A stretch of 45,560 bases of DNA, taken from the NCBI GenBank assembly GCA_016787285.1, contig JAEUUV010000207.1, positions 1 through 45,560 on the forward strand. Direction: 5' to 3'. This document shows, piece by piece, positions 281-4,895 of the stretch; position 1 is the stretch's first letter; every line of letters begins with the position of its first letter. This stretch comes from Saprospiraceae bacterium (GTDB taxonomy: Bacteria > Bacteroidota > Bacteroidia > Chitinophagales > Saprospiraceae). The translations under genes were made by a program, and so were the position numbers. The notes below the pieces were generated by a model that saw only the letters and a program-made list of their open reading frames with translations, did no database searches and was not told where the DNA came from.

Positions 281-1279
281 ATGGAAAACAAAGGCGAAGT
301 GCTCATTTATGAAAGTGCCGACCATCAAACTCAAGTGGAGGTTAAGTTGGAAGCAGAAACCATCTGGCTGACCCAAAAGCAAATTGCCTTACTTTTCGGC
401 ACACAACGACCGGCAATCACCAAACACCTGAAAAACATCTTTGCGACCCGTGAGTTGGATGAGCAGTCAGTTAGTTCCATTTTGGAACATACTGCCGGCG
501 ATGGCAAGGCTTATCAAACGCAGTTTTATAGTCTTGATGCAATCATCTCGGTTGGTTACAGGGTAAATTCTCAGCGAGCGACCCAATTCCGAATATGGGC
601 CACCCAACGGCTGAAAGACTACCTGGTGCGCGGCTACGCGTTGAATGAAACACGGCTGCAGCAACTGGCCCACAACCTGGGCGAACTGGAGCAGACCGTG
701 CAGCGTATCCGGCTAGCCGGCGACACGGAGGCCCTGCAACTCACCGAAGCCAGGGGTTTGCTGGAGATTATCGGCCACTATACCCGGAGTTTTGTGCTGC
801 TCAACCAGTTCGACAGCCACACGCTGGAGCCGGGCGAGGTGAATGAAAACATCACCTACGAAATCGCCTTCGAGGAAGCCGAGGCTGCAATTGAAGAACT
901 AAAACTGGGCTTGATCGCTCAAAAAGAAGCCACGGCGCTGTTTGGCAACCAGAAGGACGGAAGTTTCCGGGGCATCCTCGGCAGTATTGTCCAGACCTTC
1001 GGCGGTGAGTACCTGTACCGCAGTATCGAGGAGCAAGCCGCCAACCTGCTGTACCTGACCATCAAGAACCATCCATTCAGCGATGGCAACAAACGCATCG
1101 GCGCGTTTTTGTTTGTGTGGTTTTTGGAGAAAAACAAACACCGCTTCAAAAAGTCGGGCGAACTGAAAATCAATGACAACGCCTTGGTGGCGCTGGCCCT
1201 GCTGGTTGCCCAAAGCGATCCCGCTGAAAAAGAACTGATGATAAAACTGATTATGAACCTGATCGACAGCCGAGCATGA
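281..1279 (+). CDS. rhuM: RhuM family virulence/defence protein fused to a Fic/Doc domain
   Basis: A 332-residue protein. The N-terminal half (about 1-130) has the RhuM pattern, with IWLTQKQIALLFGTQRPAIT followed by a YSLDAIISVGYRVNS segment, a probable DNA-binding region. The C-terminal half carries a Fic/Doc motif at about 264-278, HPFSDGNKRIGAFLF. Fic domains transfer AMP, or phosphate in Doc, to target proteins. Here the second arginine of the classical HxFxDGNxRxxR motif is absent, as in some Doc-like members, so the exact reaction is open. RhuM-Fic fusions are known neighbours of type I restriction-modification genes, which fits the downstream ATPase, RloB and HsdM. The ATG at 281 follows the candidate promoter at 232-263. 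Confidence 0.88.
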   Translation: MENKGEVLIYESADHQTQVEVKLEAETIWLTQKQIALLFGTQRPAITKHLKNIFATRELDEQSVSSILEHTAGDGKAYQTQFYSLDAIISVGYRVNSQRATQFRIWATQRLKDYLVRGYALNETRLQQLAHNLGELEQTVQRIRLAGDTEALQLTEARGLLEIIGHYTRSFVLLNQFDSHTLEPGEVNENITYEIAFEEAEAAIEELKLGLIAQKEATALFGNQKDGSFRGILGSIVQTFGGEYLYRSIEEQAANLLYLTIKNHPFSDGNKRIGAFLFVWFLEKNKHRFKKSGELKINDNALVALALLVAQSDPAEKELMIKLIMNLIDSRA

Positions 1280-1280
1280 T

Positions 1281-1340
1281 ATGGCGGCAGGGCGGGGGGT
1301 ATTGAAGCGGGCGTTTGAGGGTGAAATAAATTACAAATAC
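1281..1340 (+). pseudogene. Possible vestige of the hsdS C-terminal tail
   Basis: The frame directly after the RhuM-Fic stop reads GRGVLKRAFEGEI. This closely resembles the conserved C-terminal helix end of type I specificity subunits (pattern LrqaILkrAFeGel). It is open into the following ATPase frame but lies upstream of the likely ATPase start at 1389. I infer that an hsdS gene once lay between the RhuM-Fic and ATPase genes and was deleted except for its last codons. The match is only about a dozen residues, so chance is possible. Confidence 0.45.
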
Positions 1341-1355
1341 AAATCAAAAAACCAA

Positions 1356-1379
1356 TACATTTGTGAAAAATTCACAAAT
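1356..1379 (+). promoter_or_regulatory. -7 box overlapped by a 9-bp dyad operator
   Basis: TACATTTG at 1356-1363 is a perfect TAnnTTTG box, 26 nt before the ATPase start at 1389. A perfect inverted repeat, ATTTGTGAA at 1359-1367 and TTCACAAAT at 1371-1379 with spacer AAA, overlaps the box and the expected start of transcription. This is the geometry of a repressor operator. No clear TTTG -33 box was found at the proper distance. Confidence 0.55.
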
Positions 1380-1388
1380 AGCAGCGCC

Positions 1389-2723
1389 ATGTTAATTGAA
1401 TTCAGTGTAGAAAACTTTCGTTCGTTCCGGGAGATGCAGACCCTGCACCTGCAGGCGGCCCCCATCAAGTCGAAAAATTCGAAGTTGGATGAGCAGAATG
1501 TTTGCCGGCTTACCGACAAACTGAGCGTTGTCAAAAGCAAGGTGATCTATGGCGCCAATGCGAGTGGCAAAAGCAACCTTGTGAAGGCGATGGCGACGTT
1601 TGTCCGGATATTCCGGCATTCCCTGCAAGACGCGACCATTTTGCAGGCATCGTTGTCGCCGCACCTGATGGATACGGAATCCTTCAAAAAACCGACTTTT
1701 TTTCAGATTCTATTCCGACTGGACGACCGCAATTACCGCTACGGTTTTGAAGCGACAGGGACTGCCATTGTCAGCGAGTGGCTTTATTCAAGCGACGGCA
1801 AGAAGCCGGAGTCATACCACTTTCGACGCAACGAGAACGGCATCGAGGTGAACCCCCGCACGTTTAAAGAAGGTGCCAGGCTGATTATCGGCAAAGACGA
1901 GATGCCGCCACTATACCGTTCCAACGCCTTGTTCTTGCCGTTGGTGGCTGCCTTCAATGGCCCGACTGCGCTCAGGATTAATCGTTATTTTTTAGAGCAT
2001 TACGCCGTGTATAGTGGGATCGAGGACATCTTGGCACAGGCCATTGCGATGGAGGCATTCCGGGAGGAACGTATGCGGGAAAAGATGGCCGACGTACTGA
2101 AGCAGGCGGATCTCGGCATCGAAGACCTCGGCAATGCAGAGATAGCGGAGGAAGACTTGAGTGGGGCAGCCAGAGAGTATTATCAAAAAATGCGTGCCGA
2201 AGGAAAGAAGCCGTTTGTCGTGGTGACCAAAAGGAGCATCCTGGATCAAACGGGGAAACATAAAACAGAGGTGCCGTTTTTCCTCAACGAAGAATCCTAC
2301 GGAACACAGAAACTGTTTTGGATGAGCCCGTTTTTGATCAATACCCTGGAACACGGCGGAGTGCTGGTTGTGGACGAATTTGGCTCCAGTATGCACGTGC
2401 AGTTGATCCGTGCCATTGTTGAACTTTTCCATTCTCCGGTCACCAATCCGCACAATGCGCAACTCATAGCGGCTACGCACGATACGCACCTGCTGGATCA
2501 GGGCCTGTTCCGCCGCGACCAGATAGCATTTGTGGAAAAATCCCGAAGCGGCCAAAGCATCCTGACCGACCTTGTGGAATTCAAAGGGGTTCGCAACGAC
2601 GCTTCTTTGGAAACCGACTATTTGCACGGCAGGTACGGGGCCGTCCCGTTGACGAACCAATTTGACTGGGCATTTACCTTTGAAACCAATGGCAAAACAC
2701 GTCAAGAAAACGGATCAGAATAA
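1389..2723 (+). CDS. rloA: AAA15-type ATPase of an RloAB/AbiL-like defence pair
   Basis: A 444-residue ABC/SMC-like ATPase of the kind annotated AAA_15 or RloA. The N-terminus LIEFSVENFRSFREMQTL is typical of OLD/RecF-like ATPases. Walker A is GANASGKS at about 55-62, Walker B is VLVVDEFGSS with D329 and E330, and a final LIAATHDTHLLD segment matches the switch region. The frame is open from 1281, but I chose the ATG at 1389 because it begins the conserved N-terminus and follows a -7 box by 26 nt. The gene overlaps the downstream rloB-like gene by 35 nt, so the two are probably co-translated. Pairs of this ATPase with RloB are known from type I restriction loci and from the abortive-infection system AbiL. 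A defence role is inferred from this. Confidence 0.85.
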   Translation: MLIEFSVENFRSFREMQTLHLQAAPIKSKNSKLDEQNVCRLTDKLSVVKSKVIYGANASGKSNLVKAMATFVRIFRHSLQDATILQASLSPHLMDTESFKKPTFFQILFRLDDRNYRYGFEATGTAIVSEWLYSSDGKKPESYHFRRNENGIEVNPRTFKEGARLIIGKDEMPPLYRSNALFLPLVAAFNGPTALRINRYFLEHYAVYSGIEDILAQAIAMEAFREERMREKMADVLKQADLGIEDLGNAEIAEEDLSGAAREYYQKMRAEGKKPFVVVTKRSILDQTGKHKTEVPFFLNEESYGTQKLFWMSPFLINTLEHGGVLVVDEFGSSMHVQLIRAIVELFHSPVTNPHNAQLIAATHDTHLLDQGLFRRDQIAFVEKSRSGQSILTDLVEFKGVRNDASLETDYLHGRYGAVPLTNQFDWAFTFETNGKTRQENGSE

Positions 2724-3384
2724 AGCCTGGAACCGCCGGACAGGTAATGCAAGAGCCTACGATCTGGAGAGCCGCGCGGCGAATGCGAAACGTTTCCTCA
2801 TCATTTGCGAGGGCGTGAACACTGAGCCATGCTATTTCAAATCTTTTCCCGTGCAGACAGCCCAAGTGGAGGCGTTTGGCATTGGGCGTTCGAAAACGAG
2901 TCTCGTCGAGCACGCGATAGAATGGGTACAACAAAAGCCTCCTGATTCTGAAAGAGAGGTCTGGGTAGTGTTTGACATGGATTTTGATCCATCGGAAGAT
3001 GCAACGTTGCAGCGCAACGACTTTAATGAGGCGATCCGATTGGCTAAAGACAACAGGTTTCGAGTGGCGTATTCCAATGACGCCTTTGAGTTGTGGTTTG
3101 TGTTGCATTATCAATTTCTGGAAGCCGCGTTGGACAGAGCCGCGTATTACAACCTCTTGGGCAACCATTGGGGAATGTCGTATGAGCGCGACTGCAAAGG
3201 ACTGCAGTTCTGTCGGGCAATATATCAGCGGTTGTTAAGCGACCCTAATGCCGATCAGCAGGCCGCTATCCGCCATGCGGAACGATTATTTGCACAGCAC
3301 GCCGGGTACCTGCCGGCCGTCCAAAATCCGTGTACCACCGTATTCCAATTAGTCGTCGAACTCAACAAATACCTGAAAAAGTGA
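2689..3384 (+). CDS. rloB: RloB-like protein with TOPRIM-type motifs
   Basis: A 231-residue protein of the RloB family. The motifs are LIICEGVNTEPCYFKSF (glutamate of a TOPRIM-like fold), VWVVFDMDFDPSED (DxD pair) and a conserved SNDAFELWFVLHY segment. RloB is thought to be the nuclease or effector partner of the AAA15 ATPase; this is family knowledge and inference. A longer frame starts at 2662, but the ATG at 2689 begins a lysine-rich N-terminus typical of the family. The start lies inside the ATPase gene. The stop TGA at 3382-3384 overlaps the GTG start of hsdM, which couples the defence pair to the methyltransferase gene. Confidence 0.85.
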   Translation: MAKHVKKTDQNKAWNRRTGNARAYDLESRAANAKRFLIICEGVNTEPCYFKSFPVQTAQVEAFGIGRSKTSLVEHAIEWVQQKPPDSEREVWVVFDMDFDPSEDATLQRNDFNEAIRLAKDNRFRVAYSNDAFELWFVLHYQFLEAALDRAAYYNLLGNHWGMSYERDCKGLQFCRAIYQRLLSDPNADQQAAIRHAERLFAQHAGYLPAVQNPCTTVFQLVVELNKYLKK

Positions 3385-4895
3385 TCGAATCTAAAAACTC
3401 TGCTTCCATCGTCACCAAAGTCTGGTCCTTCTGCAACACCCTGCGCGACGACGGCGTGGGCTATGGCGACTACCTCGAACAACTGACCTACCTGCTCTTC
3501 CTCAAAATGGCCGACGAGTACAGCAAGCCGCCCTACAGCCGGACATTGCCCATCCCGCCCGCCTACAACTGGGGAAGCCTCGTGGACCTGAAAGGCGCCG
3601 AACTCGAAACACACTACAACACCATGCTTCGGGAACTGGGCAAGGGAAAGGGCATTCTGGGGCAGATTTTCACCAAGAGCCAGAACAAGATTCAGGACCC
3701 CGCCAAACTCTCCAAAATCATCGCCATGATAGAGGCCGAGCAGTGGCTGATGATGGGCGTGAAGGACAAGGGCGACATCTACGAGGGCCTGCTGGAAAAA
3801 AATGCGGAGGACACCAAAAGCGGCGCCGGGCAGTATTTCACCCCCCGCGCACTCATCCGCGCGATGGTCGAATGTGTGCGCCCCGAACCGATGCGTACCA
3901 TCGCCGACCCGGCCTGTGGAACGGGCGGGTTCTTTTTGGCGGCCTACGATTTTCTGACCGAACACCACCAGATGGACAAGGAGGAACGGGAATTTTTGAA
4001 ACACCGGACGTTTTTCGGCAACGAAATCGTGGCCGGTACTCGCCGCCTGGCGCTGATGAACCTGTTTCTGCACAACATCGGCGACATAGACAGCGACAAC
4101 TTTATTTCCCCCGCCGATGCCCTGATCGCGGACTCGGGCGCACGCTACGACTACGTGCTGGCCAATCCGCCGTTCGGCAAAAAAAGCAGCCAAACCTTCA
4201 CCAACGAGGAAGGCGAGCAGGAAAAGGAAGACCTCACCTACAACCGCCAGGACTTCTGGGCCACCACCAGCAACAAGCAACTCAACTTCGTGCAGCACAT
4301 CCGCACCATGCTCAAAGCCACCGGTGTGGCGGCGGTCGTGCTCCCCGACAACGTGCTGTTCGAGGGCGGCGCCGGCGAAACCGTGCGCAAAAAACTGCTG
4401 GAAACGACCGACGTGCATACCATCCTGCGACTGCCTACCGGCATTTTCTACGCCCAGGGCGTGAAGGCCAACGTGGTTTTTTTCGACAACAAACCCAGCA
4501 GCAAAACGCCCTGGACGAAGGAAATCTGGGTGTACGACTACCGCACCAACATCCACCACACCCTCAAGAAAAACCCGCTAAAACTGGACGACCTGCGCGA
4601 TTTTATCGCGTGCTACAACCCCGGCAACCGCCACAAACGCACGGCAACCTACCACCCCGAAACCAACCCGGAGGGCCGTTGGCGGATGTTCACCTACGCA
4701 GAGATCATCGCTCGCGACAAAACCAGCCTCGACATTACCTGGCTCAAAGACCAATCGCTCGCCGACCTCGACAACCTGCCCGACCCGGACGTGCTGGCCT
4801 TGGAAATTATCGAGAACCTGGAAGCGGGTCTGGCGAGTTTTCGGGAAGTGGCAGCGGGGTTGAGCTGGGCGGAGACAAGTCCTGCCTCTGCCTGA
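3381..4895 (+). CDS. hsdM: Type I restriction-modification N6-adenine methyltransferase subunit
   Basis: A 504-residue HsdM. An N-terminal helical domain (VWSFCNTLRDDGVGYGDYLE, about 11-30) precedes the Rossmann methyltransferase domain. That domain has the AdoMet motif DPACGTGGF at about 176 and the catalytic NPPFGKK at about 262. The subunit methylates adenine when joined to HsdS. A GTG start at 3381 gives a GTGA overlap with the rloB stop. An upstream ATG at 3330 would add 17 residues from within rloB that do not look like HsdM. The length is normal. No hsdS or hsdR follows; housekeeping genes begin at 5014. The specificity and restriction subunits must be to the left or missing. Confidence 0.92.
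   Translation: MIESKNSASIVTKVWSFCNTLRDDGVGYGDYLEQLTYLLFLKMADEYSKPPYSRTLPIPPAYNWGSLVDLKGAELETHYNTMLRELGKGKGILGQIFTKSQNKIQDPAKLSKIIAMIEAEQWLMMGVKDKGDIYEGLLEKNAEDTKSGAGQYFTPRALIRAMVECVRPEPMRTIADPACGTGGFFLAAYDFLTEHHQMDKEEREFLKHRTFFGNEIVAGTRRLALMNLFLHNIGDIDSDNFISPADALIADSGARYDYVLANPPFGKKSSQTFTNEEGEQEKEDLTYNRQDFWATTSNKQLNFVQHIRTMLKATGVAAVVLPDNVLFEGGAGETVRKKLLETTDVHTILRLPTGIFYAQGVKANVVFFDNKPSSKTPWTKEIWVYDYRTNIHHTLKKNPLKLDDLRDFIACYNPGNRHKRTATYHPETNPEGRWRMFTYAEIIARDKTSLDITWLKDQSLADLDNLPDPDVLALEIIENLEAGLASFREVAAGLSWAETSPASA

Follow-up and report, generated by a model that had tools for sequence, protein, structure and literature searches.

Defense units lodged within type I restriction-modification loci are known from several systems, including TgvAB (PMC11411939), DarTG2 with its repressor RptR (PMC12255303), and PrrC (PMC12707154), as described in the available text of these papers, and the available text of PMC2928727 places slightly overlapping rloA and rloB genes inside the hsd locus of Campylobacter jejuni M1 (CJM1_1490-1494). 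Here we describe the window, which is the entire 45,560-bp contig C187 of a Saprospiraceae bacterium (window position 1 is contig position 1), and specifically four genes near its left end encoding a RhuM-Fic fusion, the ATPase RloA, the probable nuclease RloB, and the type I methyltransferase subunit HsdM. The locus is probably the 3′ half of a type I restriction-modification locus with the order hsdR...hsdS...hsdM and an EcoEI-type HsdR C-terminus, in which the slot between hsdS and hsdM carries RhuM-Fic and RloAB. Because rloAB in an hsd locus and other type I guests are already in print, the window locus is of a known kind; the additions are nested cargo, scars at its borders, and most notably a palindrome ahead of rloAB.

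As in C. jejuni M1, rloA and rloB overlap within what we read as a type I locus with hsdR, hsdS, and hsdM, but the C. jejuni order by locus numbers is hsdR-rloA-rloB-hsdS-hsdM (available text of PMC2928727), whereas in the window rloAB lies directly before hsdM, beside RhuM-Fic and an hsdS scar. The window guests resemble TgvAB, DarTG2, and PrrC, as far as the available descriptions of these go, in being defense units within a type I locus, although the guest genes differ. AbiL and PARIS each combine an ABC ATPase with a TOPRIM nuclease (available text of PMC12409363). The AbiLi and AbiLii profiles match the window pair, and RloA also weakly matches AriA (E 3e-29), but RloB has no AriB match, and AbiLii is its sole PADLOC match.

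Organization of the locus

The earlier note on this DNA, made from the sequence alone, described a co-oriented RhuM-Fic fusion, AAA15-type ATPase, RloB, and HsdM, and these assignments are borne out by Pfam and PADLOC matches, with all four genes on the + strand and free of internal stops. The overlaps that it reported are also as described, rloA and rloB sharing 35 nt (2689-2723) and rloB and hsdM sharing GTGA (3381-3384). An inositol monophosphatase gene directly follows hsdM, which is therefore the final gene of the locus. The features are as follows.

1-203, no strand: interspersed repeat at the left end of the contig, 98% identical to the start of contig C188
281-1279, + strand: RhuM-Fic fusion, guest gene, PADLOC candidate PDC-S23 (Pfam Virulence_RhuM and Fic; PDC-S23)
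1290-1321, + strand: relic of an hsdS 3′ end, reading ...GVLKRAFEG... (DNA matches to the hsdS ends of relatives)
1356-1363, + strand: candidate -7 promoter box TACATTTG (from sequence; Flavobacterium consensus TAnnTTTG, available text of PMC9723704)
1360-1378, no strand: 19-bp palindrome TTTGTGA-N5-TCACAAA, candidate rloAB operator (recurrence before rloA)
1389-2723, + strand: RloA/AbiLi, Rad50-like ABC ATPase (Pfam AAA_21 and AAA_15; PADLOC AbiLi, E 3.1e-91)
2689-3384, + strand: RloB/AbiLii, probable TOPRIM nuclease (Pfam RloB, E 5.5e-40; PADLOC AbiLii)
3381-4895, + strand: HsdM, type I DNA methyltransferase subunit, GTG start, last gene of the locus (PADLOC, Pfam)

The earlier note saw no hsdS, but the DNA at 1290-1321 matches the hsdS end of locus L015 (93.75% over 32 nt, E 1e-6) and that of L143 (96% over 26 nt). 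The core 20-mer of this stretch has one exact occurrence in the genome, and one other place matches it at three mismatches. From the DNA matches and the unique 20-mer it follows that the window holds the scar of an hsdS 3′ end; tblastn reported no match for this sequence, which is too short for it, and the identification rests on the DNA matches. The rloA frame stays open upstream to 1281, and the codons ahead of the ATG at 1389 read GRGVLKRAFEGEI; HsdS of relatives ends in LRAGVLKRAFEGQLV (L015) and RAGVLKRAFEGRLVG (L016). An rloA start at 1281 was rejected, because alignment with relatives puts the RloA N-terminus at 1389 and the preceding codons match hsdS ends. Judged by sequence, the in-frame codons from 1281 to 1388 are the hsdS 3′ relic followed by the putative rloA promoter.

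Nothing to the left of the window is visible, because window position 1 is the first base of contig C187. The repeat at 1-203 probably breaks the source assembly (5.56 Mb, 345 contigs, 96.65% complete) at this point; positions 1-280 have at least 40 matches in their own genome, themselves included, many of them near contig starts (40 of 55 candidates were scored). The appearance of an HsdM without HsdS and HsdR is most likely an effect of the contig end. The sole HsdR_N match of the genome is on contig C139, whose right end carries, in order, HsdR, PDC-M19A, PDC-M19B, and the first 47 nt of an hsdS. The HsdR frame has 955 residues, with ResIII and EcoEI_R_C (E 1.7e-38) matches, and the terminal 47 nt translate to MNELPKGWTWKKLGE, an HsdS start. 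The DUF488 protein and the further protein between them match the PADLOC candidate pair PDC-M19A/PDC-M19B (L013 8983-10782), and this pair between hsdR and the hsdS start is a further guest unit. The sequence comparisons make the right end of C139 most likely the 5′ half of the locus (hsdR, the PDC-M19 pair, and the hsdS start). With an hsdS start on C139, a 3′ relic in the window, and the body nowhere in the assembly, the hsdS body is therefore placed in an assembly gap. The earlier note had pictured a methyltransferase without its specificity subunit, a description that is not supported, given hsdR and the hsdS start on C139, the relic in the window, and the order hsdR...hsdS...cargo...hsdM in relatives (see below). 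It had suggested looking for hsdR and hsdS to the left: the window itself has neither, ending there with the contig, but hsdR and the 47-nt hsdS start are found on C139, which we infer to join C187.

Several observations weigh against this reconstruction. The only Methylase_S match of the assembly is on a different contig, C159 (L012 6216-7439, a 407-residue frame), where an hsd partner was looked for only among the listed frames, and a complete hsdS of the locus type is found nowhere in the assembly. The terminal 100 nt of C139 have no second match in the assembly, no overlap was found between this contig end and that of C187, and the window begins with a repeat. The NCBIfam hsdM equivalog scores 82.5 bits with the window HsdM, below its cut-off of 242.75. 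The TOPRIM fold of RloB is weakly supported: neither Foldseek (at E≤0.001) nor a sequence search matched RloB to a solved structure, whereas RloA has 66 Foldseek matches and four weak ones by sequence.

If the reconstruction is correct, HsdR, HsdM, and HsdS would jointly methylate self DNA and cut unmethylated DNA, and RloAB would form an abortive-infection unit of its own: the ABC ATPase RloA would sense infection and keep hold of its nuclease partner RloB or let it go, in the manner of AriA and AriB in PARIS. RhuM-Fic would be a further candidate toxin-like unit. What had looked like an orphan methyltransferase would then belong to a type I locus of which only one half can be seen.

Related loci in the same genus

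When 42 genomes of the genus, the source genome among them, were searched with the window HsdM, eight other HsdM loci were identified at 55-92% identity in seven genomes; the remaining HsdM matches are at most 44% identical, except for a scar in genome G060 (77% over 22 residues). Two of the eight loci (L140 and L145) start just ahead of hsdM, where contig ends cut them, and are hence unreadable upstream. All six upstream-readable loci have the order hsdR...hsdS...hsdM, with HsdM 75-92% identical to that of the window (in L138 the contig end cuts hsdR). Their hsdS-hsdM slots are occupied as follows, with RloAB in two and RhuM-Fic in one.

L138 (G064): rloA-rloB
L139 (G060): putAbiC protein, AAA_5 protein, McrBC, a gene weakly IS200-transposase-like (below the Pfam cut-off), and rloA-rloB
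L141: PDC-M56A/B
L142 (G009): RhuM-Fic
L143: a 229-residue frame without Pfam match
L144: GIY-YIG protein

The closest relatives are G064 (L138/L016) and G060 (L139/L015), which share with the window the order hsdR...hsdS...rloA-rloB-hsdM, an HsdM of 91-92% identity, an overlap of rloB and hsdM, and the same palindrome before rloA. Both differ from it in lacking RhuM-Fic and in having a complete hsdS, and in G060 the scar ahead of rloA is also different, coming from the 5′ end of hsdM instead of from hsdS. The rloB stop and hsdM start overlap by 4 nt and 1 nt in these two relatives, both of those found in the genus with rloAB before hsdM, which agrees with the tight coupling of an AbiL-like pair to hsdM that the earlier note had pointed out. 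The comparison of gene order that it proposed shows rloAB before hsdM in these two relatives, and hsdR and hsdS in all six readable loci.

Identities of the C139 HsdR and the window HsdM to their counterparts fall in parallel over the six readable loci, being 89 and 91% in G060, 87 (for part of HsdR) and 92% in G064, 81 and 90% in G022, 64 and 79% in G009, 60 and 75% in G021, and 61 and 75% in a second G022 locus. RloA and RloB are 63-70% identical to their G060 and G064 counterparts, compared with 91-92% for HsdM, a gap in sequence identity as expected if the guest pair was swapped separately from the host locus.

Scars accompany the guests. G060 has two copies of the hsdM 5′ end, one in a 21-codon fragment upstream of rloA (L015 8538-8600, contig C620; E 2e-8) and the other in the real gene behind rloB. 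In G025 (L140 1-470) a similar transposase-like gene end adjoins the hsdM start and rloAB is absent; a 620-nt stretch of G025 aligns twice to G060, with 331 nt (76%) over the transposase-like gene and hsdM fragment and 216 nt (91%) at the real hsdM. This double alignment places rloAB in G060 exactly at the hsdM start, with the hsdM scar ahead of it, although the direction of change between G025 and G060 is inferred. In the window the scar between RhuM-Fic and rloAB is of hsdS. The simplest reading of these sequences is that recombination took place at conserved hsd gene ends and replaced whole blocks. The comparison suggests that the hsdS-hsdM interval in this genus is a slot for the exchange of defense units that leaves short hsdS or hsdM scars behind.

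A palindrome ahead of rloA

The palindrome at 1360-1378 lies just upstream of rloA and overlaps TACATTTG, a candidate for the -7 box TAnnTTTG described for Flavobacterium (available text of PMC9723704). The exact motif is present in 5 of the 42 same-genus genomes (G000, G060, G030, G024, and G064), once in each and always before rloA, and the reversed pattern used as a control has no sites in these genomes. As the motif was derived from sequences that include four of the five positive genomes, and the fifth (L023) was known from the first pass described below, the worth of this search is that it found no further site in the 42 genomes. The exact site is missing from at least nine more genomes of the genus, G012 and G023 among them, whose RloB match is more distant. 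The exact palindrome also stands upstream of rloA in L014, L015, L016, L023, L024, L027, L033, and L045.

Close forms of the palindrome recur ahead of rloA across Bacteroidota. Three passes were made over rloAB loci, each leaving out loci without a called adjacent RloA. In the first, with a narrow rule for the rloA start and 29 sequences dropped, the motif stood at a spacing of 3-7 in 7 of 31 loci. The second, with 10 sequences dropped and 50 loci with a located rloA start (window included), allowed up to one mismatch and found it in 19 loci within 120 nt upstream of rloA, and at none of 760,198 other positions in the same loci. For the third pass the model was relaxed after the second-pass data had been seen, and five sequences were dropped (L031, L034, L049, L069, and L074); sites were found at -70 to -19 in 31 of 55 loci, compared with 12 among 860,210 positions elsewhere, and TA is found where the -7 box requires it in 20 of these 31. 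The symmetry of the half-sites is only partly supported: positions 6 and 14 are complementary in 25 of the 31 sites (mean of 16.8 in shuffles, with 1 of 5,000 reaching 25), but positions 5 and 15 are complementary in 20, with no excess over shuffles (mean 20.3). It may also be that the palindrome acts as an RNA hairpin.

Palindrome sites occur with both free-standing and hsd-linked rloAB (the latter in L015, L016, L025, L043, L045, and L047), and no third gene, such as a separate regulator, was seen by eye to stand regularly beside rloAB in the displayed neighborhoods. Because the site accompanies rloAB and no regular third gene was seen, RloA or RloB is, from this sequence association, the likeliest binder. 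In DarTG2, by contrast, repression falls to a small protein of its own, RptR, with the site TAGCTA (available text of PMC12255303). A promoter of their own, equipped with a palindromic operator, would drive the rloAB genes, and given the overlap of rloB and hsdM, the latter would be read at least partly from the rloA promoter; rloAB, and hsdM behind it, may thus be self-regulated. We tentatively suggest, as a proposal that could well be wrong, that RloA and/or RloB, without a separate repressor, binds the palindrome over its own promoter and places hsdM under the same, possibly infection-responsive, switch, so that an abortive-infection pair and self-marking are co-expressed. The literature on RloAB, RhuM, AbiL, and type I loci yielded one paper with rloAB in an hsd locus (PMC2928727). 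We found no description of an rloAB operator in it, a survey that did not search for the operator by name and mostly did not extend to subscription journals. The palindrome offers a direct handle on the control of an AbiL-type pair, and it predicts DNA binding by RloA or RloB.

Alternative explanations

An HsdM without visible partners could also be left by decay of a type I locus, if a deletion or the insertion of RhuM-Fic had removed or truncated hsdS and HsdM were a relic read behind rloAB. Such decay would account for the presence of only 30-odd nt of hsdS directly after RhuM-Fic and for the lack of a full hsdS of the locus type in a 96.65% complete assembly. We nonetheless consider it unlikely, given the hsdS start and full-length hsdR on C139 and the window HsdM, which is full length and shares 91-92% identity with its counterparts in two relatives that have hsdS in the locus; moreover, an intact hsdS could lie within the gap, in which case the relic would be a scar left by a previous copy. 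Alternatively, the two guests might not be true neighbors of each other, if the assembly is chimeric at the junction of RhuM-Fic and the hsdS relic (1270-1330). In favor of this, the assembly is split into 345 contigs, a repeat forms the end of the contig, and the junction is at the edge of hsdS, a gene that varies between strains; but the junction 20-mer is unique in the assembly and RhuM-Fic also lies between hsdS and hsdM in G009, and a chimera is highly improbable.

The earlier note had raised a distinct composite defense module as one of two possibilities, the other being a decayed type I locus. In such a composite, RloAB would work with an HsdS-free HsdM, for example in marking or sensing DNA without type I specificity. 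The overlap of rloB and hsdM fits such a module, being conserved in the two relatives found in the genus in which rloAB precedes hsdM, but the loci of those two also include hsdS and hsdR, and L141-L144 have an HsdM of this family behind cargo of other kinds. HsdS is also needed for type I restriction and modification, according to the available text of PMC11411939. Among 66 rloB loci, 64 have a called RloB, and with a neighborhood of up to seven frames before and five after, an Hsd gene is near rloB in at least 7 of the 64 (L015, L016, L025, L043, L045, L047, and L069), a lower bound given few Hsd seeds and many short contigs; no Hsd gene was seen near the other 57. rloAB seems to be more often free-standing and sometimes lodged in type I loci. 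With the same-genus loci and C139 in hand, we set the composite module aside as having scarcely any probability, and retain the type I locus with guests as the preferred reading.

Features of the encoded proteins

The PADLOC search proposed in the earlier note returned the AbiLi, AbiLii, MTase_I, and PDC-S23 profiles. The window pair is of AbiL type in that an AbiLi-type ABC ATPase adjoins an AbiLii/RloB protein with overlapping genes, although the match of RloB to the AbiLii profile (E 1.5e-26) is partial, covering only positions 14-90 of 170. Neither RloA nor RloB has a match in NCBIfam. In model alignments covering 52 of 53 RloA and 54 of 57 RloB references, the RloA Walker A stretch GANASGKSN and D329/E330, and E46, D96, and D98 of RloB, show no or almost no variation. 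Among named relatives, those nearest to the window RloB are in Saprospiraceae metagenome genomes. The source genome, G000, has two further and more distant RloB-like matches, at C42:2830-3432 and C154:631-1053 (L104 and L107), with 34% and 28% identity.

RhuM-Fic matches the PDC-S23 profile as a full-length fusion (E 2.3e-128, residues 1-329 of 332), and HPFSDGNKR is present in its translation; a member of the PDC-S23 family is the slot occupant in G009 (L142). HsdM belongs to its family by its PADLOC MTase_I match (E 3.3e-193) and by Pfam N6_Mtase and HsdM_N matches above cut-off. A methyltransferase like that of MADS (methylation-associated defense) was considered and rejected, as the MAD2 equivalog scores 91.6 bits against a cut-off of 720. 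When its own genome is searched with the window HsdM, other HsdM proteins score at most 93 bits, compared with 1168 for the self match. Two N6_Mtase HsdM-like genes of other families lie in tandem on contig C213 (L011 82-4318), with a 384-residue frame between them, and fill this 4.4-kb contig.

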